DNA of 64,000 nucleotides from Crocinitomicaceae bacterium (lineage in GTDB: Bacteria; Bacteroidota; Bacteroidia; Flavobacteriales_D; Crocinitomicaceae): assembly GCA_017983465.1 (NCBI GenBank), contig JAGOBK010000002.1:248001-312000 (forward strand), written 5' to 3'. The position numbers were made by a program, and so were the translations under genes. Positions 2,931 to 16,118 of this stretch are shown here, in pieces. Each line of letters begins with the position of its first letter. The first letter of the stretch is position 1. The notes under the pieces are model-generated. The model saw only the letters and a list, made by a program, of their open reading frames with translations, did no database searches and had not been told where the DNA came from.

Positions 2931-4400
2931 ATGAGACTATTTCAAAAATCACTGATACTTACAGGATTAATTATCCTATCTCTATCACAAACAGCTTGTG
3001 ACAAGTTCCTTTCTGTTGATCCTCCATACACACAAGATGTGGAGAACTTCTTTCAAACACCGGAAGATTTTGACCGCGCTTTAACTGGTGCATATGACAT
3101 GTTGCAAGCATCATTCTTAACCATGTGGATTGGAGAAATTGCTTCTGACAATGCCATCGCAGGTGGGGAAAGTGTGAACGATTCACCCGGACTACACCAA
3201 ATCGACAACATGACACACGGAGGTGTGAATGTGGAACTTAGAAATGTTTTTCGTTGGAATTACACGGGATTAACACGTGCAAACTACATTCTTGAAAACA
3301 AAGACAACATCGACTTTCCAGGTAAAGCACATATCATCGCAGAAGCGAAGTTCTTACGCGCTTACTACTACTTTGAGTTAGTGAAATACTTCGGAGATGT
3401 TCCTTTAATCATCGACAAACGCATCGGTATTGAAGAAGCACTTCAAATTGCTCGTTCACCAAAAGCTGAAGTATATGCACAAATCGAAAAAGATTTGAAA
3501 GATGCATCAGAAGTATTAAATCCTGTTGCAAGTCAAAAAGGAAGAGCTACAAAAGGTGCAGCCTTGTCTTTCCTTGGGAAAGTATACTTATACCAAAACA
3601 AATTTACCGAAGCTGCAGCTACATTTGACGAAGTTATTGCCTCTGGAAGTTACAGCTTAACTCCAAGTTATGTTGACTTATTTTCTGTTGCCAATGAAAA
3701 CAACAGCGAAACAGTATTCGATGTACAATACACTGGCTTAGAAGGTGGAAGTTACGGTTGTTTAATCTGTCTTGAAGGAAATGCAGCAGTTGGATTCCAA
3801 GGAATTCGTCAGTACAATGGACCGGTTTACGGAGATGGAAACAGTTACAACTTGCCAACGCAAGAATTGTATGATGCGTTCAGTTCAATCGATGGTCGAC
3901 GCGCTGCTACTATTTTAGACATCGATGCGTTTATCGCAACACAACCGAATCCAGCCGCTATCACCTACGCTGAAGGCGCTGGTGGACACACGGGATACTA
4001 CAACAATAAATACATCAAACGTCAAGGTGAAATTGGACTTCCTGACAACGACTTAACAAGTCCTGTCAATTACCGTGTGATGCGCTATTCTGATGTGCTT
4101 TTAATGGCAGCAGAGGCTCATTACCAACTTGGACATACATCAACTGCACAGCAGTTTGTTAACCAAGTAAGAGGTCGTGCTGGTGTACCAGGAATTCCTG
4201 TTAATTCAATTGAGGTAATCTATAAAGAACGTCGCTTCGAATTATCCGGAGAAGGATTACGCTTCTTCGACTTAGTACGAACAGGACAAGCGGCGACCTA
4301 TATTGATGGTTTCGTTACAGGTAAACATGAATTATTCCCAATTCCTCAAGTTGAAATTGACTTAACAGGAGGAAATTGGTCACAAAACCCAGGTTATTAA
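2931..4400 (+). CDS. SusD/RagB-family glycan-binding outer-membrane lipoprotein
   Basis: This is the surface lid lipoprotein that captures oligosaccharides for the SusC channel. The 489-residue length is normal for the family. The N-terminus is a lipoprotein signal ending SLSQTAC with Cys23 as the lipidated residue. The SusD fold is recognisable from the VDPPYTQDVENFFQTPEDF opening, the ARFLRAYYYFELV-like helix (here EAKFLRAYYYFELVKYFGD) and the C-terminal YKERRFELSGEGLRFFDLVR signature. It starts 3 nt after susC and is followed 11 nt later by the PKD lipoprotein, so it belongs to the same operon. Ligand specificity cannot be read from sequence; the neighbouring GH16 and GH3 enzymes suggest laminarin-type glucan. 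Confidence 0.95.
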   Translation: MRLFQKSLILTGLIILSLSQTACDKFLSVDPPYTQDVENFFQTPEDFDRALTGAYDMLQASFLTMWIGEIASDNAIAGGESVNDSPGLHQIDNMTHGGVNVELRNVFRWNYTGLTRANYILENKDNIDFPGKAHIIAEAKFLRAYYYFELVKYFGDVPLIIDKRIGIEEALQIARSPKAEVYAQIEKDLKDASEVLNPVASQKGRATKGAALSFLGKVYLYQNKFTEAAATFDEVIASGSYSLTPSYVDLFSVANENNSETVFDVQYTGLEGGSYGCLICLEGNAAVGFQGIRQYNGPVYGDGNSYNLPTQELYDAFSSIDGRRAATILDIDAFIATQPNPAAITYAEGAGGHTGYYNNKYIKRQGEIGLPDNDLTSPVNYRVMRYSDVLLMAAEAHYQLGHTSTAQQFVNQVRGRAGVPGIPVNSIEVIYKERRFELSGEGLRFFDLVRTGQAATYIDGFVTGKHELFPIPQVEIDLTGGNWSQNPGY

Positions 4401-4411
4401 AATTTAGAGTT

Positions 4412-5263
4412 ATGAAAATGAAACTACTATTTTCAGCAAGCATCTTAGCATTACTTTTTGCTTGTAAAAAAGATAATCCGCAATTAGGTCCTGCACCTAC
4501 AGCTGCAGATGCTGCATTTACTTATACCCCATCTGCAAGTAATGCGAACATCATTGAGTTTACCGCAAATAATCCAGATCTTCAATGTCTTTGGGACTTT
4601 GGAAATGGGACCAAAGCGAAAGGAGCTACCGTAAGTTCTCCATATCCATACGCTGGGACTTACACAGTGAAATTAACTGTATTTTCCTCTGGGGGAAGCA
4701 AAAGTTCTTCTCAAGAAATTACCATTGCTCAGGACAACTTAGGACTTCTAAACAACCCTATTTTCATCATGTTAACTGGTGGTATTAATGGTCCAGGATA
4801 TAAAACATGGGTGATTGATTCTACTGCAGATGGACACATGGGCGTTGGACCAGATCCAATTAGTCCGTTAGGTGATATTCCAGAATGGTGGTCAGCTGGC
4901 GGTTTAGACAAAGCTGGCGCAGGTTTGTACGGAGATCAATACGTATTCCATTTAAACGGATTCAAATTCGACATGATCAATCATGGTGATGTGTATGTGC
5001 ACAATTCACTTTCTGCTAGTTTTCCGGGGTCCTTTCAAAACCTAGGAGATTATACAGCTCCTTTCGATGATCAAATGAACGAATCATGGACATTACTTGA
5101 AAACGCAGATACTACTATTACCCTTACCAATAATGCGTTTATGGGGTTCTATACAGGAGTGCATACCTACAGAATATTGGATATCACTGACTCTACACTA
5201 TCTTTACAATATAAACATCACGCAGGCGGTTTCAATTGGTATTTACGTCTGAAAAGTGAATAA
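4412..5263 (+). CDS. PKD-domain surface lipoprotein, candidate surface glycan-binding protein
   Basis: A 283-residue lipoprotein starting at ATG 4412; an in-frame start at 4376 would lie inside susD and precede the signal sequence. The signal MKMKLLFSASILALLFAC puts the lipidated Cys at residue 18. Residues about 30-110 form a PKD domain, with the CLWDFGNGTKAKG and YAGTYTVKLTVFSSGGS landmarks. The remaining 170 residues are rich in Trp, Gly and Asp and I do not recognise a named domain. A lipoprotein right after susD in a glycan locus is typically a surface glycan-binding protein (SusE-position protein). That role is inferred from position, with PKD as the usual N-terminal spacer. Confidence 0.8.
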   Translation: MKMKLLFSASILALLFACKKDNPQLGPAPTAADAAFTYTPSASNANIIEFTANNPDLQCLWDFGNGTKAKGATVSSPYPYAGTYTVKLTVFSSGGSKSSSQEITIAQDNLGLLNNPIFIMLTGGINGPGYKTWVIDSTADGHMGVGPDPISPLGDIPEWWSAGGLDKAGAGLYGDQYVFHLNGFKFDMINHGDVYVHNSLSASFPGSFQNLGDYTAPFDDQMNESWTLLENADTTITLTNNAFMGFYTGVHTYRILDITDSTLSLQYKHHAGGFNWYLRLKSE

Positions 5264-5267
5264 CATC

Positions 5268-6365
5268 ATGATTATGAGCATTCATCACCTTATTGTTTTC
5301 GTTTTTGCTGGACTCGCAGGCTGCGACAAAAATAAACCGCCAGTTGTTACTTTGCCAACAAATTTGGTGACTTCCATCACTACGACCGGTGGATTAGTAG
5401 ACGTACAAGCTACTGCTGAACACGCAAATTTCTATACGGTTACTTTTTATCACAACAATGATTCAACTGTAGTTGAAACAACAGATGGACATGCTGCTCA
5501 TACTTATTTAGCAACTGGAACCTATTCGATAAAAACTTGTGCTCACACCACTTATGCAGACTTTATTCAAAAAGTAGAAAATGTGGCTGTTACAGTTACA
5601 GGTGGTAGTACTTCAGGAGCTCCAACAACTGGATATAGCACTCCAAACTCTTACGCCAATTATTCATTAGTTTGGAGCGACGAATTTAACGGCTCAAGTC
5701 TTTCCAGTGATTGGACATTTGATATCGGAACCGGAAGCGGTGGATGGGGTAACAATGAATTACAATACTACACCAATCAAAATTACACGCTAAACGGAGG
5801 ATATTTAGAAATTACAGCGAAGAACCAACCCTTTAATTCACAGTTGTATACTTCCACTCGCATGAAAACGCAAGGAATTAAATCATGGAAATACGGACGT
5901 ATCGATATTCGTGCCGCCATTCCTTACGGACAAGGGATCTGGCCAGCACTTTGGATGTTAGGTGACAATATTTCCACCGTAGGATGGCCATCTTGTGGAG
6001 AAATCGACGTCATGGAATTAATTGGTGGCGCAGGTGCAAACGACCGCACTGTACATGGAACCGCACACTGGAGCGACAATGGTGCTCATGCCCAATATGG
6101 AAACAGTACCACATTGCCATCCGGTAAATACGCTGATGAATTTCACGTGTTCTCCATTGTATGGAATCAGAATAGCATTACTTGGTTACGAGATGACATA
6201 GCGTATAATACGCTCAACATAAGCCCAGCGAACCTCAGTGAATTTAAGGAGAAATTTTTCCTGATTTTCAATGTAGCCGTAGGTGGTAACTGGCCAGGAA
6301 ATCCAGATGCTACTACTGTTTTCCCTCAGACCATGTATGTTGATTACGTTCGCGTTTTTCAATAA
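5268..6365 (+). CDS. GH16 family endo-beta-1,3-glucanase (laminarinase-like) lipoprotein
   Basis: A secreted endo-acting glycoside hydrolase of family 16. The catalytic motif is E-I-D-V-M-E, with nucleophile Glu245, assisting Asp247 and acid/base Glu250 when counted from ATG 5268. The one-residue bulge (EIDVME rather than EIDIE-type spacing) is the laminarinase/beta-glucanase form. The GH16 jelly roll covers about residues 130-365 and includes YGRIDIRAAIPYGQGIWPALWMLG. A lipobox (GLAGC) shows membrane anchoring. Residues about 30-110 form a small beta-rich domain of unknown type. I chose ATG 5268 over GTG 5256, which overlaps the previous stop; ATG 5274 is also possible. Product oligosaccharides would be taken up by the SusCD pair and trimmed by the GH3 enzyme. 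Confidence 0.9.
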   Translation: MIMSIHHLIVFVFAGLAGCDKNKPPVVTLPTNLVTSITTTGGLVDVQATAEHANFYTVTFYHNNDSTVVETTDGHAAHTYLATGTYSIKTCAHTTYADFIQKVENVAVTVTGGSTSGAPTTGYSTPNSYANYSLVWSDEFNGSSLSSDWTFDIGTGSGGWGNNELQYYTNQNYTLNGGYLEITAKNQPFNSQLYTSTRMKTQGIKSWKYGRIDIRAAIPYGQGIWPALWMLGDNISTVGWPSCGEIDVMELIGGAGANDRTVHGTAHWSDNGAHAQYGNSTTLPSGKYADEFHVFSIVWNQNSITWLRDDIAYNTLNISPANLSEFKEKFFLIFNVAVGGNWPGNPDATTVFPQTMYVDYVRVFQ

Positions 6366-6388
6366 ACATTCCATAAAATAAAACACCT

Positions 6389-8692
6389 ATGAAAAATTTA
6401 CTTTACTACTTCGGTGGCATGCTTTTGCTATTGTTTTCATGTAAGAGCGCACAATCCATCACTACATCTAATACTTCCCCTGAAGACAAATCGTTAAATG
6501 TCCGCATTGCACAAATGTCGATTGAGGAAAAAGTTGGACAAACTTGTCAAATTACATTGGACGTCATCTCGCAAACAGATGCCAAAGGGGCAACACTTAC
6601 TCCGACAACAATTGATACAGCAAAACTAAACGAAGCGATCCTTAAATACCATGTAGGATCCGTTTTAAATGTTGGTTGGCACACATTAAGTTTAGATGAA
6701 TGGAAAGGGGTTATTCCTGCCGTTCAACGTTCCTACACAACTGGAAAAACAAACATTCCCGTGATTTATGGAATTGATGCCATTCATGGCGTAAACTACA
6801 CGGTTGGTGCAACTTTATTTCCACAAGAGATTGGATTAGCCGCTACTTGGAATCCAACATTAGCGAAGAAATTCGGAGAAATAACCGCCTATGAAACAAG
6901 AGCATCTGGAATTCCTTGGAATTTTTCACCAGTTTTAGATTTAGGCCGACAACCACTCTGGTCTCGTACCTTTGAAACACTCGGTGAGGATCCCTATCTT
7001 ATTTCACAAATGGGAACGGCGATCATAGATGGTTATCAAGGAAGTACAACTCCTGACGAATTTCACGTTGCTTCATGTATGAAACATTTCGTTGGATATA
7101 GCGGAACGACTAGTGGTCGAGATAGAACTCCAGCGTGGATCCCAGAAAAATACATGAAAGAATTATACTTACCATCATTCAAGGCTGCAGTAGAACATGG
7201 CGCGCTGACTGTGATGATCAATAGTGGAGCAGTAAACGGTATTCCTGGACATATTAATCATCATTTGATTACAGAAACCTTAAAAGAAGAATGGGGATTC
7301 GAGGGATTTGCCGTTTCCGATTGGGAAGATTTTATTATGTTACATACCGTTCACTCAACCGCTCCAAGTCTAGCAGATGCTTATGTACAAGCCTTCAATG
7401 CAGGAGTTGATATGAGCATGGTTCCCTTAAGTCCGCAATACAAAGAATACTGCACGATCATGGTGAATGCTGTGAAATCAGGAAAAATTTCCATGGACCG
7501 ATTGGATGACGCCGTTCGCAGAATTTTACGCGTTAAATCAAGATTGGGCTTGTTTGAAAGACCGGTACCAACATTTGAAAACTACCCTAAATTTGGCTGC
7601 GCTGAATTCCAACAAGCGTCCCTCAATACAGCATTGGAGTCCATTACACTCTTGAAAAACGAAAATGGAATTTTACCATTATCAAAAAATCAAAAAGTGT
7701 TGATTGCTGGACCAACATCTAACAACCTCGTTTACTTGAATGGCGCTTGGACACATACATGGCAAGGAGTAGATACAGCTTTCAACACGAGTGGATGTCT
7801 AACCGTTCGCGCGGCTTTTGAGAAGAAATTAGGGAAGGAAAACTGCTTGTATTCTCAAGGAGCAGAACTATATACCGAAAATGCATTTGAAAAAACTCGC
7901 TTTGTGAATTTAACAGATTACAAAGAGAAATTAAAGTTGGCTGATGTCGTTATTTTATGTCTTGGTGAACTTCCAGCTACGGAAAAGCCAGGAGATATCC
8001 TGTCTCTGAATCTAGATTCCGAACAACGTGAACTAGCGAAAATGGCTTACGAGCAAAACAAAAAAGTCATCTTAGTTCTCCTAGAAGGAAGGCCGCGTAT
8101 CATTCATGACATCGTTTCTGGAGCTTCAGGAATCATTCAAGCGTATTTACCTGGGAATTATGGTGCAGAGGCTTTGGTATCCTTAATGCTCGGAGAAAAG
8201 AACTTTAGCGGAAAACTTCCATACACTTATCCAAAATTCGATGGTGTCATTGAATTTTACGACCATCCAAAAAGTGTAGACCGATCGAAATCAGGTGATT
8301 TCAGTGCGTACAATCCTGAATGGGACTTTGGTTATGGGCTAAACTATTCAAGTTTTGAATACACTGCTTTATCCTTGAATCAAACCATCTTTTCAGATAA
8401 CGACAGCATCGCTGTGACAGTAACTCTAAAAAACAGCAGCTCCATAGCTGGGAAAGAAGTGATTCAACTTTATGTGAGCGATGACTATGCGAGTTTGATT
8501 CCGACAGGTAAATCATTAAAACGATTCTTAAAAATCGATGTTCCTGCTCAAACAGAAGTAAGTAAAACATTCTATCTAAACTTAAAAGATTTTCAATTTG
8601 TTGGAAACTCAGGTGAATTCATAGTAGAAGAAGGAGAGTTTACCATACGAGTAGGTAATCTGACAAAAAAAGTAAGTTATAAAAAGAAATAA
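6389..8692 (+). CDS. GH3 family beta-glucosidase (periplasmic/outer-membrane lipoprotein)
   Basis: Exo-acting beta-glucosidase of 767 residues that would release glucose from beta-glucan oligosaccharides. A lipoprotein signal ends LLLLFSC with Cys18. The N-terminal barrel domain contains IPVIYGIDAIHG, CMKHFVGYS and the nucleophile motif FAVSDW with Asp311. The C-terminal alpha/beta sandwich begins near residue 420 (ESITLLKNENGILPL), and a fibronectin-III-like domain closes the protein (KEVIQLYVSD). This is the standard three-domain GH3 layout of BglX-type enzymes. It lies 23 nt after the GH16 gene and ends the co-directional enzyme block. Exact linkage specificity (beta-1,3 against beta-1,4) is inferred only from the GH16 partner. 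Confidence 0.93.
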   Translation: MKNLLYYFGGMLLLLFSCKSAQSITTSNTSPEDKSLNVRIAQMSIEEKVGQTCQITLDVISQTDAKGATLTPTTIDTAKLNEAILKYHVGSVLNVGWHTLSLDEWKGVIPAVQRSYTTGKTNIPVIYGIDAIHGVNYTVGATLFPQEIGLAATWNPTLAKKFGEITAYETRASGIPWNFSPVLDLGRQPLWSRTFETLGEDPYLISQMGTAIIDGYQGSTTPDEFHVASCMKHFVGYSGTTSGRDRTPAWIPEKYMKELYLPSFKAAVEHGALTVMINSGAVNGIPGHINHHLITETLKEEWGFEGFAVSDWEDFIMLHTVHSTAPSLADAYVQAFNAGVDMSMVPLSPQYKEYCTIMVNAVKSGKISMDRLDDAVRRILRVKSRLGLFERPVPTFENYPKFGCAEFQQASLNTALESITLLKNENGILPLSKNQKVLIAGPTSNNLVYLNGAWTHTWQGVDTAFNTSGCLTVRAAFEKKLGKENCLYSQGAELYTENAFEKTRFVNLTDYKEKLKLADVVILCLGELPATEKPGDILSLNLDSEQRELAKMAYEQNKKVILVLLEGRPRIIHDIVSGASGIIQAYLPGNYGAEALVSLMLGEKNFSGKLPYTYPKFDGVIEFYDHPKSVDRSKSGDFSAYNPEWDFGYGLNYSSFEYTALSLNQTIFSDNDSIAVTVTLKNSSSIAGKEVIQLYVSDDYASLIPTGKSLKRFLKIDVPAQTEVSKTFYLNLKDFQFVGNSGEFIVEEGEFTIRVGNLTKKVSYKKK

Positions 8693-10817: not shown

Positions 10818-11690
10818 ATGACTCAAGAGACTACTCAAGCTCCATCCACTTTTAAAACCTATTTGGTTTTCACAAAATTTCGATTGTCATTTCTAGTGAT
10901 TTTATCCGCACTTTCCGGATATTTATTCGCTGGCGGAAAGGATGGGTTAGTCATTTTCTATTTAATGCTTGGAGGGACACTTGTAACCGCAGCATCAAAC
11001 GGAGCAAATCAAATATGGGAACGCGATTTAGATAAATTCATGAACCGCACCAATCGCCGTCCCTTACCTACCGGACAAATGTCCTTGCGTGAAGCCTACA
11101 TTATTTGCACATTCTCATTGATCAGTGGAACGATTTTATTAGCATTAATCAATTGGAAAAGTGCCATTCTAGGTGTGCTGGCATTTATCAGTTACGTCTT
11201 CATTTATACTCCTCTCAAGCAAAAAACACCTTGGGCCGTTTTCGTTGGTGCCTTTCCGGGTGCCATTCCTCCGCTATTAGGAGCCATTGCACACACAAAT
11301 GCTTTTGGATTCGAGCCTGGAGTACTGTTTTTTGTCCAATTCACATGGCAATTCCCTCATTTTTGGGCAATTGCATGGGTCTTGTACGACGATTATAAAA
11401 AAGCAGGGTTTTCTCTTTTGCCTTCAAGAACTGGGAGATCCAAACATTCCGCCTTTCAAATCATGCTTTACGCTTTAGCACTTATTCCATTTAGTTTAGT
11501 TCCATGGCTATTAGGCTGGACAGGTATCTATTCATTAATTATTGCAAGTGTATTGGGAATTGGTTTCTTTCTCTATGCATACAAACTTTACCACAGTCTA
11601 GAAGTTTTAGATGCACGTAAACTTATGTTCGCCTCATTTGTTTATTTACCGATCATACAATTTGTTTACGTATTTGATCGCACTTTATAA
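10818..11690 (+). CDS. ctaB: Protoheme IX farnesyltransferase (heme O synthase)
   Basis: A UbiA-superfamily membrane prenyltransferase that adds a farnesyl group to protoheme to make heme O, the precursor of heme A for the terminal oxidase. It has 290 residues and about eight to nine membrane helices. The allylic-diphosphate/Mg site is visible as N64-x3-E68-x-D70-x-D72 followed by RTNRRPLP. The second conserved loops are YTPLKQKTPWAV and YDDYKKAGFSLLPS, both typical of CtaB/CyoE rather than of other UbiA enzymes. The first Asp of the usual NxxxD motif is Glu68 here. It opens a cluster of oxidase subunit III, subunit IV and SCO genes. The next gene follows after 31 nt. Confidence 0.93.
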   Translation: MTQETTQAPSTFKTYLVFTKFRLSFLVILSALSGYLFAGGKDGLVIFYLMLGGTLVTAASNGANQIWERDLDKFMNRTNRRPLPTGQMSLREAYIICTFSLISGTILLALINWKSAILGVLAFISYVFIYTPLKQKTPWAVFVGAFPGAIPPLLGAIAHTNAFGFEPGVLFFVQFTWQFPHFWAIAWVLYDDYKKAGFSLLPSRTGRSKHSAFQIMLYALALIPFSLVPWLLGWTGIYSLIIASVLGIGFFLYAYKLYHSLEVLDARKLMFASFVYLPIIQFVYVFDRTL

Positions 11691-11721: not shown

Positions 11722-12807
11722 ATGAGCACCGAAAACGAAGAAAAAATGACTAAAAAAAGAGATTTCTCCAACGAAATTAGTCCGGAAGTAAAGGAGAAAA
11801 TGAAGAAAAACCTTGTTTACGTAGGGATTTTCAGTGTGATCATGTTATTTGCTGGGTTTACATCAGGATACTATGTATCCATGGGTGATTCCTTTTGGTT
11901 AAAATACCCAATGCCTACATTCTTTTGGCTAAGTACCGCGAGTATTGCCTTGAGTAGTTTAGCATTTGTGCTTGCTATTCAAAGCGCTAAAAAAAATCAA
12001 CAAGGAAAAATCAAACTATGGATGGCTGCTACATTGATTTTTGGTGCAGGATTCATCTATTGTCAATTCAAAGGATACGGCGAATTGGTTCGAAATGGAT
12101 TTCATGCAGTCAATAATTTAGTCGTTACCGACGGACGTTATGGTGATTATTTCGAAGTCAAATACAACAATAAATTCATTGATGTAGATGGGAACAAATT
12201 TGTTTACGAAGGAAAAGAGATGAATGACAATGACTTCAAGGCATTTCAAAACTTCATGGGACAATTTATCGCGGTTAAACAAAATGAAGCTCTTCGTTTA
12301 ACAAAAGCAGATGGGCGTTTTGAACTGTACTTCAATCACCAACCACTAGTGATCAAAAAAGGACTTTTGTTTGCAAATGACTCCACACAACTACAATTCA
12401 CCGATGAAATTCGCCTGAGTCAATTAGCCGTGAATATCAAAGATAAGCGCGGTGATTTTTTTGCTAGAGGTGAATATGGTAAAGACTTTACGATATTCTA
12501 CAAAAAGCAAAAACTAGATTACAAAGACAGAAAATTGTGGTACAAAGGGAAAACGATTAAACCACATTTACAAGTGAAAGCCATGGAATCTGCCGACTCA
12601 GCTTCACAATATCTTTACCTAATTACCTTTGTTCACTTACTGCACGTTCTCGTTGCGTTAATCTATTTATTAAAGGTATCAACAGCTTCATTTAGAGGCA
12701 ATTTCAATTCAGAGAACCATTTGTCCTTGCGATTAAGCGCATTATTCTGGCACTTTTTAGGCGTTTTATGGTTAGCTTTACTCTTGTTTTTCATATTTAT
12801 TCACTAA
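11722..12807 (+). CDS. ctaE: Cytochrome c oxidase subunit III-like protein with a large soluble insert
   Basis: A heme-copper oxidase subunit III-family membrane protein, here 361 residues against about 190-200 for compact bacterial versions. Three membrane helices lie at about residues 33-53, 66-90 and 98-117, and two more near 290-312 and 330-358. Between helices 3 and 4 is an insert of roughly 170 residues, beta-rich with repeated Lys/Asp/Tyr turns (VDGNKFVYEGKEMND, LWYKGKTIKPHLQVK). Subunit III stabilises proton uptake in the catalytic core; the insert has no role I can name. It is followed 20 nt later by a second subunit III gene. Subunits I and II are not in the window. Confidence 0.8.
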   Translation: MSTENEEKMTKKRDFSNEISPEVKEKMKKNLVYVGIFSVIMLFAGFTSGYYVSMGDSFWLKYPMPTFFWLSTASIALSSLAFVLAIQSAKKNQQGKIKLWMAATLIFGAGFIYCQFKGYGELVRNGFHAVNNLVVTDGRYGDYFEVKYNNKFIDVDGNKFVYEGKEMNDNDFKAFQNFMGQFIAVKQNEALRLTKADGRFELYFNHQPLVIKKGLLFANDSTQLQFTDEIRLSQLAVNIKDKRGDFFARGEYGKDFTIFYKKQKLDYKDRKLWYKGKTIKPHLQVKAMESADSASQYLYLITFVHLLHVLVALIYLLKVSTASFRGNFNSENHLSLRLSALFWHFLGVLWLALLLFFIFIH

Positions 12808-12827
12808 ACTTGCAAAAAATTAGTTAA

Positions 12828-13853
12828 ATGGCTGGACATACAACACAACTAGATGCCAAGACCCTTTGGGGTGGAAAAGAATCGCCTTTTCAAACAAGCT
12901 ATGGTAAATTAATGATGTGGTTTTTCCTCGTGTCAGATGCACTGACATTTAGTGGATTACTTATTGCTTATGGATTTACGCGTCACGATGCGCAAGATGC
13001 ATGGCCAATTGGTGAAGAAACCTTCAACTCCATGCCTTTCTTAGGACACGGTTATCCCCTACTCTATGTGGCATTAATGACGTTTATTCTAATCGTTTCT
13101 TCTGTTACAATGGTATTAGCTGTTGAGGCAGGACACAGAATGGACAGAAAAGGTGTTACAAACTGGATGATTGCCACTATTATTGGTGGATTCTTCTTTG
13201 TTGGTTCTCAAGCATGGGAATGGTCTCACTTTATTCATGGTTCTGAATTTGGAAAAATCGAACTAGCTGATGGCTCACAAGCCATTGTAAAAGGACATTT
13301 CGGTGAAATCAAAAACTTCACTGTAATTGAAGCAGGTAAACACCACAAGGTTGGTGAAGTCATGAATGAAGACTTAATGCATGAATTCCAACATGCTGCT
13401 GAGAAGGGACATCTTGAAGGTGGAAACATTCATTTTGCAGACGGAACCGTTGCTAAAATCAATAAAGCGAAAGACCATGAGATGAAATTAATCATCAAAA
13501 AATCTGGTTCTAAACATGAAATTGGCTCTGCTCCAATTACAGGTGCTGCTGCTGAAAAAATGTACTATGAAGCGCTTTACAGTGGTGAAGCAAACCGTGT
13601 AGTTTACGGTGCAAACATGAAACAAAACGAATACGGTCCACAACAATACGCTCAGTTCTTCTTCTTCATTACTGGATTCCACGGTTTCCACGTATTCTCT
13701 GGAGTAATGATCAACATCATCATTTTAATTGGTGTTCTTGGTGGAACTTACCACAAACGTGGACACTACGAGATGGTTGAAAAAACTGGACTTTACTGGC
13801 ACTTTGTCGATTTAGTTTGGGTGTTTGTATTTACATTCTTCTACTTGATCTGA
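12828..13853 (+). CDS. ctaE: Cytochrome c oxidase subunit III with soluble insert (second copy)
   Basis: A second subunit III-family protein, 341 residues. Its helices are closer to consensus: LMMWFFLVSDALTFSGLL, LLYVALMTFILIVSSVTM, WMIATIIGGFFFVGSQAWEW, then FFFFITGFHGFHVFSGV and GLYWHFVDLVWVFVFTFFY. The last two carry the conserved HGxHVxxG and WHFVDxVWxxxF signatures. An insert of about 110 residues (around 145-255) lies between helices 3 and 4, with paired motifs ADGSQAIVKG and ADGTVAKINK. A moderate insert here is, as I recall, common in Flavobacteriia. It sits between the first copy and subunit IV and is surely part of one oxidase operon. Confidence 0.9.
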   Translation: MAGHTTQLDAKTLWGGKESPFQTSYGKLMMWFFLVSDALTFSGLLIAYGFTRHDAQDAWPIGEETFNSMPFLGHGYPLLYVALMTFILIVSSVTMVLAVEAGHRMDRKGVTNWMIATIIGGFFFVGSQAWEWSHFIHGSEFGKIELADGSQAIVKGHFGEIKNFTVIEAGKHHKVGEVMNEDLMHEFQHAAEKGHLEGGNIHFADGTVAKINKAKDHEMKLIIKKSGSKHEIGSAPITGAAAEKMYYEALYSGEANRVVYGANMKQNEYGPQQYAQFFFFITGFHGFHVFSGVMINIIILIGVLGGTYHKRGHYEMVEKTGLYWHFVDLVWVFVFTFFYLI

Positions 13854-13878: not shown

Positions 13879-14247
13879 ATGGAAAGAGATGATTTAATTG
13901 AATATTCATTACACAATCACCACGACGAGGCTCAAGGAAAGTCAATTCGTAAAAAAATTCTTCAAGTAACATTATTACTTACTGCTATTACAACGGTTGA
14001 AGTTTTTTTAGGTGCACTCATTAAACAAAGCAGTGATGCTTGGGCATTTGTAAAATGGTCATTCATCATCATGACCCTTGTGAAAGCTGCATATATTGTG
14101 ATGGTATTTATGCACTTAGGTGACGAGAAAAAAGCGCTTAGAAATGTTGTATTGATTCCATACGCAATTTTTATTTTATACTTGATTTTCATCCTAATTT
14201 GGGAAGGAACAATGGTATCTGCAACTTGGAAATCTTTCGGATTCTAA
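13879..14247 (+). CDS. ctaF: Cytochrome c oxidase subunit IV (caa3-type small subunit)
   Basis: A 122-residue, three-helix membrane protein of the prokaryotic oxidase subunit IV family. It has an N-terminal cytosolic stretch with His and acidic residues (LHNHHDEAQGKSIRKKI), then helices near 30-50, 60-80 (SFIIMTLVKAAYIVMVFMHLGDEKKAL, the family signature) and 88-110. It probably helps assembly or stability of the oxidase. It begins 25 nt after the second subunit III and ends 3 nt before the first SCO-like gene, so the block is one operon. Confidence 0.88.
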   Translation: MERDDLIEYSLHNHHDEAQGKSIRKKILQVTLLLTAITTVEVFLGALIKQSSDAWAFVKWSFIIMTLVKAAYIVMVFMHLGDEKKALRNVVLIPYAIFILYLIFILIWEGTMVSATWKSFGF

Positions 14248-14250
14248 TAC

Positions 14251-14946
14251 ATGCCACAAACACAGCAACCAAGAAGTCGTGCTAAATCGATTCTAGCTTT
14301 GCTGTTGGTCTTTGGTCCAGCACTTTTCCTTATACTCATTTCTACGCGTCGCTGTGAACACAAGTTCAAACAGTTGGATGACTACGGATTGGTAAAAGCA
14401 CCTTCGTTTGAAATCTTTGAAAACGGAACATACCAAACCAAGAAATTAAGTGATTACAAAGGAGATCTTGTCGTTATTTCTACGATTCAAACGACCTGTC
14501 CCAAAGAATGCGGTATTTCTCTTTGGCACTTCAATCAAATCCTGTTTCAACACATCCGTAAAAACAAGCGCAAAAAGCTAAAACAAGTTCGACTTATTTC
14601 TTTTGCTACAGATGAGTTCGGACGTCCAGCAAGCGACGAACAAATTCAAACGATTAGAGAGATGCTTGAAGACGATGTGGAGGACTACGATCCATCCCTT
14701 TGGATTATCGCGAAAGGTGACCCTGCGAAAGTGTACGACATCAAGCACAACAACCAACGTTTGTACAGAAAAGGGAAAGAATACTTTGGCGGTGTAAGTT
14801 ATTCCTCACTTATGCTTCTACTCGATAAACAAAATCACCTCAGAATGGTTTTAAAAGGTGATGAAGAGGGAATGATTCGCCGAATGAAAGAACACCTTGC
14901 CCTGCTTCAAAAGCAATATGATAAAGAACGGGCAAAAAATGGCTAA
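14251..14946 (+). CDS. SCO1/SenC-family thioredoxin-fold protein lacking the conserved copper His
   Basis: A 231-residue protein with an N-terminal membrane anchor (about residues 13-31, LALLLVFGPALFLILIS) and a thioredoxin-like SCO domain facing the periplasm. The copper-type dithiol is present as C83-P-K-E-C87. In SCO proteins a downstream His completes the copper site; at the aligned place this protein has Tyr184 (VSYSSLMLLLD, compared with AHSGSFTLVD in the next gene). It may therefore be a thiol-disulfide reductant for the CuA site rather than a copper carrier (inference). Its stop overlaps the start of the second SCO gene. Otherwise it could be a diverged, redundant copy. Confidence 0.8.
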   Translation: MPQTQQPRSRAKSILALLLVFGPALFLILISTRRCEHKFKQLDDYGLVKAPSFEIFENGTYQTKKLSDYKGDLVVISTIQTTCPKECGISLWHFNQILFQHIRKNKRKKLKQVRLISFATDEFGRPASDEQIQTIREMLEDDVEDYDPSLWIIAKGDPAKVYDIKHNNQRLYRKGKEYFGGVSYSSLMLLLDKQNHLRMVLKGDEEGMIRRMKEHLALLQKQYDKERAKNG

Positions 14947-15607
14947 ACTAACTTTTCTCTTTGTGCTTTTTGCGTTGCTCTATTCTTGCAGTAACGAAAC
15001 TCCACCGAAACTTCCGATATTGGGTAACGCCGACATTCTCTATAAAACTGTAGATGGAAAAGAAATAACGGACACCATTTATCCAACAATCCCTGCTTTC
15101 TACTTTTTAAATCAAGATAGTCTTCCAGTTACCAATGAAAGCTACAAAAACCGGATTTGGGTTGTGGAATTTTTCTTTGCTACGTGTCCGACCATTTGTC
15201 CGATTATGAATGTGCAATTCAACAAACTAAATCAGGAAACGAAGAAGTACAAAAAACACATACAATTTCTATCGTTTAGTATTAATCCAAAGAATGATCG
15301 TCCATTCGTTTTAACTAAATACAAACGCGACCACGGAATCACTGCGAATAACTGGGATTTTCTAACTGGAAATGAAGCCGAAACACATCGTTTAGGCATC
15401 GAAAACTTTTTAACCTTTGCAGGAAGAGATGACGAAGCCGAAGGTGGATACGCACACTCTGGCTCCTTTACTCTTGTTGATAAAACCGGACATGTGCGCG
15501 GTGTTTATGCTGTAACCAATATGGACTTGAGCGTAAATGCGAAAGAATACAAACGACTTAAAACCGATTTAATTAACCTTTTGAACTATGAATACGATGT
15601 CAAATAA
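14939..15607 (+). CDS. SCO1/SenC-family copper chaperone lipoprotein
   Basis: A 222-residue lipoprotein (signal FVLFALLYSC) with a canonical SCO domain. The copper ligands are all visible: C83 and C87 in CPTIC, and His173 in AHSGSFTLVD. SCO proteins deliver or reduce copper for the CuA centre of oxidase subunit II. I chose ATG 14939, which overlaps the previous gene by 8 nt and begins the lipoprotein signal; an earlier in-frame ATG at 14897 would lie within the upstream gene. The 3' end overlaps the next gene by 20 nt, a sign of translational coupling. Confidence 0.92.
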   Translation: MAKLTFLFVLFALLYSCSNETPPKLPILGNADILYKTVDGKEITDTIYPTIPAFYFLNQDSLPVTNESYKNRIWVVEFFFATCPTICPIMNVQFNKLNQETKKYKKHIQFLSFSINPKNDRPFVLTKYKRDHGITANNWDFLTGNEAETHRLGIENFLTFAGRDDEAEGGYAHSGSFTLVDKTGHVRGVYAVTNMDLSVNAKEYKRLKTDLINLLNYEYDVK

Positions 15608-16118
15608 CAACCTTCCATCCTCTAAATACAGAAAACTTGTCGTTGCTGTATCCATTATTATTCCAATCGCAGTAGCTGCACTTTTTGGAATTAAAGTAGA
15701 AGGCGTCGATTTATCGTGTTTACCGCCCTTTTACGCCACTTTAAATGGTCTGACGGCTGTTCTTTTAATTCTAGCGTTAGTCTTCATTAAACAAGGGAAT
15801 ATGAAGCTCCATCAACGCACGATTCAAGCATGTTTAGCAATTAGTTTGTTATTCTTGCTTTGTTACGTTGCGTACCACATGACTTCAGATAGTACCGCGT
15901 ACGAAGGATCATACAAAGCTATTTATTACTTCATCTTGATCTCACATATCCTGCTAAGCGTTGCTGTAATTCCAGTCGTGTTATTTACTTACTTATTCGC
16001 ACTAGAAGGAAATTATACGAAACACAAGAAGTACACGCGATTTGCCTTTCCAATTTGGTTATATGTTGCAGTGACAGGTGTGGTGGTTTATTGGATGATT
16101 TCTCCGTACTACGTCTAA
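15588..16118 (+). CDS. DUF420 family membrane protein
   Basis: A 176-residue integral membrane protein of the DUF420 (YozB-like) family. Five hydrophobic segments are visible: about 18-36, 49-67, 80-98, 112-133 and 151-171. The family marks are PPFYATLNGLTAVLL in helix 2, the KLHQRTIQACLAIS loop, and YFILISHILLS and TKHKKYTRFAFPIWLYVAVTGVVVYWM. Members commonly close cytochrome oxidase/SCO operons and are suspected oxidase assembly factors; their biochemistry is unknown. It overlaps the SCO gene by 20 nt. A start at ATG 15597 is also possible. Confidence 0.88.
   Translation: MNTMSNNNLPSSKYRKLVVAVSIIIPIAVAALFGIKVEGVDLSCLPPFYATLNGLTAVLLILALVFIKQGNMKLHQRTIQACLAISLLFLLCYVAYHMTSDSTAYEGSYKAIYYFILISHILLSVAVIPVVLFTYLFALEGNYTKHKKYTRFAFPIWLYVAVTGVVVYWMISPYYV

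Follow-up and report, generated by a model that had tools for sequence, protein, structure and literature searches.

The closest described systems to the locus analysed here are the oxidase subunits III of the COX3 family (PF00510) in their five-helix bacterial form, for example CyoC of E. coli and CtaE of M. smegmatis, the tandem CoxIII gene pair of the Flavobacteriaceae, and the ACIII-aa3 supercomplex of F. johnsoniae. Subunit III is usually viewed as a compact membrane subunit, and in the compact COX3/CyoC topology the loop connecting helix 3 to helix 4 lies on the periplasmic side. In the Flavobacteriaceae pair, CoxIII-1 is a short protein of about 186-200 aa without an insert and CoxIII-2 is mostly 324-353 aa long, which bears out the preliminary description of this DNA, where it was stated that compact subunit III has no extra domain and that one copy in Flavobacteriia carries a moderate insert. 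In F. johnsoniae, alternative complex III (ACIII) contacts the oxidase through a five-helix subunit III, as stated in a passage of a review (PMC8361435). A map of this supercomplex has been published (EMD-7447, as cited in that review), and the species is genetically tractable (PMC8552683).

We analysed a stretch of 64,000 nucleotides from a Crocinitomicaceae bacterium (assembly GCA_017983465.1, contig JAGOBK010000002.1, positions 248,001 to 312,000; hereafter the window), in which two neighbouring subunit III genes each encode a large insert at the same place. What is new here is that both inserts are internal tandem repeats, and a whole bacterial family has a subunit III with a predicted folded, repeat-built cap in place of the usual compact subunit. 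A literature search of titles and the beginnings of abstracts found no description of these CoxIII inserts.

A Pfam search of the window showed that the coxIII pair is part of an oxidase accessory operon (Table 1), in which it is accompanied, like other COX3 genes, by genes for subunit IV and SCO. The UbiA prenyltransferase at its upstream end is presumably CtaB/CyoE. The open reading frames of two adjacent oxidase subunit III genes, as originally described, were confirmed, and CoxIII-1 lay upstream of CoxIII-2 on the same strand in all 147 of the 147 loci checked. The pair shares this composition and order with that of the Flavobacteriaceae; it differs from typical COX3 in that the window's genome has two tandem paralogues for one CoxA. 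Downstream, the first of the two tandem SCO1/SenC-like genes (14251-15607) is strongly diverged, scoring under the Pfam cut-off, and retains the CxxxC pair.

Table 1. Features of the oxidase accessory operon and of the two CoxIII inserts (window positions; residue numbers are those of the respective protein)
Feature	Position	Strand	Evidence
UbiA prenyltransferase, haem O synthase-like	10818..11690	+	PF01040, 8.1e-55
CoxIII-1, 361 aa, five-helix subunit III paralogue with large insert	11722..12807	+	
CoxIII-1 insert, residues about 125-292 (168 aa), between helices 3 and 4	12094..12597	+	AlphaFold2 model
Unit u1: predicted strands 144-148, 154-156, 159-162, helix 169-180	12151..12261	+	model and profiles
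Unit u2: predicted strands 200-204, 210-212, 215-217, helix 226-240	12319..12441	+	model and profiles
Unit u3: predicted strands 256-260, 266-268, 271-274, helix 281-289	12487..12588	+	model and profiles
CoxIII-2, 341 aa, more canonical of the two subunits III, with insert	12828..13853	+	
CoxIII-2 insert, residues about 138-270 (133 aa including conserved tail before helix 4)	13239..13637	+	
Unit v1: predicted strands 143-145, 151-157, 161-168, helix 183-193; conserved D182, H185, H189	13254..13406	+	
Unit v2: predicted strands 200-202, 208-213, 217-225, helix 239-250	13425..13577	+	
Prokaryotic oxidase subunit IV	13879..14247	+	PF03626, 46.9 bits
Diverged SCO1/SenC-like protein with CPKEC	14251..14946	+	PF02630, 17.6 bits, below cut-off
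SCO1/SenC copper protein with CPTIC	14924..15607	+	PF02630, 77.2 bits
DUF420 membrane protein	15588..16118	+	PF04238, 141.1 bits

Both proteins scored above the curated COX3 (PF00510) cut-off of 23.8 bits, CoxIII-1 with 24.4 bits and CoxIII-2 with 49.9 bits. AlphaFold2 models of the whole proteins (pLDDT 90.7 for CoxIII-1 and 83.8 for CoxIII-2) were compared with solved COX3 chains, and over helices III-VII the best matches had Z 18.8 at 1.9 A with 178 residues aligned for CoxIII-1 and Z 18.3 at 3.9 A with 186 residues aligned for CoxIII-2. The last-helix motif WHFVD.VW, which we take to be the canonical COX3 motif of that helix, is present in CoxIII-2 and is also visible in the alignment with 6adq_G; the CoxIII-1 consensus at that place is WHFLG.LW. 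CoxIII-1 and CoxIII-2 are paralogous five-helix subunits III. They share the five-helix core with other COX3 proteins and differ from them in the inserts between helices 3 and 4. These had been sized at about 170 and about 110 residues, and the location and the first size held, whereas the second was a little low. Both had also been called beta-rich, but they are more than that: the modelled inserts are mixed beta and alpha.

In the CoxIII-1 model, helices H94-124 and H293-324 flank the insert, and the 10-residue mean pLDDT for residues 131-290 is 90-97, indicating an ordered rather than a disordered insert. The repeat was first noticed in the CoxIII-1 alignment, where a common motif occurs at residues 138 and 250 and the middle copy is degenerate. 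Comparison of the unit slices of 46 sequences by hhalign gave probabilities of 96.5% for u1-u3, 95.7% for u2-u3 and 80.7% for u1-u2. As a control, 40 column-shuffles were made per unit pair, and none of the 40 scored as high for any of these three pairs. The first strands of the units start at residues 144, 200 and 256 of the model, an exact period of 56 residues. Profiles and predicted structure together show that the insert consists of three tandem beta-beta-beta-alpha units of exactly 56 residues. Searched alone, the CoxIII-1 insert gave no Pfam match, and its profile found no second copy elsewhere in its own genome.

The CoxIII-2 insert is likewise predicted to be ordered, with a 10-residue mean pLDDT of 86-93 over residues 131-280, and ends in a conserved YGAN....NEYG stretch ahead of helix 4. 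Its two units matched each other by hhalign with 95.1% probability, a value that again none of 40 column-shuffles reached, and their first strands, at residues 143 and 200 of the AlphaFold2 model, are 57 residues apart. By the same kinds of evidence, this insert is shown to consist of two tandem units of 57 residues with a predicted beta-beta-beta-alpha order. Alone against Pfam, it gave one weak match of 9 residues (E 0.065). Of 40 added genomes of the family, 31 have a CoxIII-2 with two v-units and 2 a CoxIII-2 with a single one, while in the other 7 no v-unit was detected.

The conserved residues of the v1 helix, arranged as D-x2-H-x3-H in the window's family, raise the question of whether the CoxIII-2 insert could bind an ion of either zinc or copper, with D182, H185 and H189 as ligands on the same face of that helix, perhaps to store or sense copper. 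Among 83 aligned CoxIII-2 sequences, H185 is conserved in 72 of the 73 with a residue at the position, H189 in 71 of 73 and D182 in 67 of 73, and H157 occurs in 58 of 83 and H173 in 60 of 83; in addition, two SCO-like genes with CxxxC adjoin the pair. Conserved histidines can, however, be purely structural, and the family genomes with a single v-unit or none have presumably working oxidases. We therefore regard metal binding as a rather unlikely role. We also asked whether an HExxH-like run at residues 185-189 could be a protease motif, and discarded the idea because relatives have T, Q, E or A at position 186. The CoxIII-2 inserts of two other loci, L038 (431 aa) and L060 (334 aa), contain stretches rich in histidine, for example HGHGHGEDH in L038.

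By homology with the COX3 topology, the loop from helix 3 to helix 4, and with it both inserts, would lie on the same, periplasmic, side. The positive-inside count agrees only weakly with this placement: in the two proteins the mean number of K and R in the short loops is 2.5 and 3.0 for loop 2-3, and 1.1 and 0 for loop 1-2. As profiles and models show, this loop has in each protein expanded into a folded cap in which a unit of roughly 56 residues was duplicated in tandem, through tripling in CoxIII-1 and, in CoxIII-2, through doubling of units unrelated to these in sequence. We propose that the caps are accessory domains outside the membrane. They would broaden or shield the oxidase's periplasmic surface next to subunit II and ACIII, and may stabilise or space the oxidase-ACIII assembly, each cap acting alone and not as one half of an obligate pair. 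We give such a structural cap or spacer role on the aa3 oxidase about an even chance, and we infer the contact with ACIII.

That the two inserts differ in sequence, as had been noted, was confirmed. The u- and v-units have the same order of elements, and hhalign found no convincing relation between them, with a probability of at most 11%. The pair u1-v2 was the only u-v pair above all shuffles (score 17.8, shuffled best 13.1), and we rejected it as too weak to claim relatedness; the whole inserts were likewise rejected as relatives (probability 1.7%, score 18.4, shuffled best 16.7). Foldseek and VIA-align searches with the whole models returned COX3 chains and unrelated helical proteins, with no insert fold among them.

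The preliminary description had suggested that the two inserts may combine into a single extra-membrane module, possibly for docking cytochrome c or ACIII. The inserts are indeed predicted to be folded, their places in the two proteins coincide, COX3 topology puts them on the same side, and their genes are adjacent in a fixed order. Neither disorder nor placement on opposite sides of the membrane, the two outcomes named beforehand as speaking against the idea, was seen. The window inserts moreover have opposite net charges, +5 for the first and -3 for the second. Over 40 pairs, however, the net charge ranged from -10 to +8 for insert 1 and from -14 to +5 for insert 2, so that opposite charge is not conserved. 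In the 7 of 40 added family genomes that lack v-units, CoxIII-2 is only 232-253 aa long and CoxIII-1 still has three u-units. Conversely, CoxIII-2 has at least 320 aa in 33 of the 64 loci whose CoxIII-1 is shorter than 205 aa and free of the insert. These results show that the two inserts come and go independently in evolution and are no obligate pair, which weakens their pairing as one module; the CoxIII genes are a pair, but their inserts are not. We consider the joint docking module quite improbable, even though ACIII genes are present in nearly all genomes of the family (see below) and ACIII is reported to contact subunit III in F. johnsoniae. Neither window insert has a cysteine or a CXXCH haem motif, and this, together with the lack of charge conservation, makes it unlikely that the inserts transfer electrons directly or dock by simple electrostatics.

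On a second, unrooted tree, the observed distribution takes at least three changes in v-unit number and at least six in u-unit number. The v-less Crocinitomicaceae members group there with other families, apart from the rest of their own, so that gene tree and genome grouping differ. Given this grouping and the unrooted tree, we do not claim an order of gain and loss.

The CoxIII-2 insert has a counterpart outside the family. When 33 Flavobacteriaceae CoxIII-2 inserts were compared with those of the window's family, hhalign gave 98.4% probability over 100 columns, with a score of 83, whereas the best of 40 shuffles scored 16. The profile match indicates that the window CoxIII-2 insert is homologous to the Flavobacteriaceae insert at the same place, and the moderate insert of Flavobacteriia is most likely this same ancient domain after strong divergence. 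A v-unit profile pooled over the window's family did not detect the Flavobacteriaceae inserts. The CoxIII-1 insert falls outside that insert family, with a profile probability of 4.2% against the Flavobacteriaceae insert and 1.7% against the window CoxIII-2 insert, and the Flavobacteriaceae CoxIII-1, unlike that of the window, is short and without insert.

The window's own genome has one A-type CoxA. Two other COX1 hits look like CcoN-CcoO fusions from their sequences. With a single A-type CoxA, both subunits III most likely serve one enzyme, the aa3-type oxidase. The oxidase genes form two separate clusters: actA-F followed by coxB-coxA (contig C7, 104000-123500) lie on the same contig as the coxIII pair, about 148 kb away. 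The CoxB encoded there gave only a weak match to the COX2 periplasmic domain profile. At the level of genes, the genome resembles F. johnsoniae in having ACIII genes with coxB-coxA. ActD was found in 151 of the 155 genomes of the family; the other 4 have the insert and no ActD hit, and are assemblies of 220-360 contigs and so little informative.

By analogy with the F. johnsoniae contact, the CoxIII cap could sit near the ACIII interface. Since the cap is on the subunit reported to meet ACIII, subunit III would be a place where respiratory supercomplexes can gain extra-membrane parts. In the known F. johnsoniae complex, one would expect the CoxIII-2 insert only. The CoxIII-1 insert is absent from the Flavobacterium loci examined, and the window's CoxIII-1 cap has no counterpart there. 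The CoxIII-1 insert is therefore probably not needed for docking in general.

The CoxIII-1 insert profile matched in 153 of the 155 Crocinitomicaceae genomes, representing 22 of 23 genera, and three u-units were detected in CoxIII-1 of all 40 added family genomes. In a sample of the class (149 genomes) the insert profile matched five, four of them from the window's family and one, partially, in another family. These counts come from uneven genome sampling, in which many relatives are metagenome-assembled. The CoxIII proteins of one family member (G388) are identical to those of Lishizhenia tianjinensis, placed by NCBI in the Crocinitomicaceae. The CoxIII-1 proteins of the order's other families have 240-429 aa, with none to three u-units detected; among 66 CoxIII-1 proteins shorter than 205 aa, a u-unit was found only in a fragment of the window's own gene.

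The single unit of CoxIII-1 proteins of 236-270 aa matched u3 best in 17 of 17 cases, five of them below 10 bits, which makes u3 the likeliest original unit as judged from these profile matches. A first tree of the helix core had one clade of 50 rows, all with a CoxIII-1 of at least 240 aa, and a unit was detected in 46 of the 50. Two loci outside this clade (L091 and L103) each have one unit, so a single origin of the u-unit is not proven.

Both inserts are under clear purifying selection. For the CoxIII-1 insert, dN was 0.024 and dS 0.93 against the nearest relative, and 0.147 and 1.9 against another; dN/dS is about 0.03-0.08 where dS could be estimated. The insert evolves faster than the core, which is expected of a scaffold but also of a drifting loop. 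We weighed whether the inserts could be tolerated loop growth without an important function, that is, constructive neutral expansion. The faster evolution would fit this, as would the wide length variation between families (186-429 aa for CoxIII-1, 217-451 aa for CoxIII-2). The low dN/dS, the retention of three units throughout the added family genomes, the spread of the insert over 22 genera, the conserved glycines of the CoxIII-1 insert and the high-confidence predicted fold all argue in the other direction, and we judge neutral growth to be unlikely.

The CoxIII-1 cap may further be a tunable module of beta-beta-beta-alpha repeats that sets the periplasmic geometry between aa3 and ACIII, its units numbering zero, one, three or perhaps more according to lineage. 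This reading is speculative and has, in our estimate, a low probability; if it were true, unit number would mark lineage-specific supercomplex architectures in Bacteroidota.

Some individual loci deviate from these patterns. In a genome of the same genus (locus L034, genome G012), the protein match of the CoxIII-1 of 401 aa is interrupted by a stop and its unit hits are fragmentary, which we read as a possible frameshift, assembly error or decaying copy. The CoxIII-1 of a Cytophagaceae bacterium (L092), 334 aa long, lies outside the order clade and has no detectable unit; it probably has an independent insert. Elsewhere in the window, positions 2931-8692 encode a SusD-like lipoprotein, a PKD-like lipoprotein and look-alikes of GH16- and GH3-type glycosidases, named by reading the translations, and this region is a probable beta-glucan utilisation cluster.
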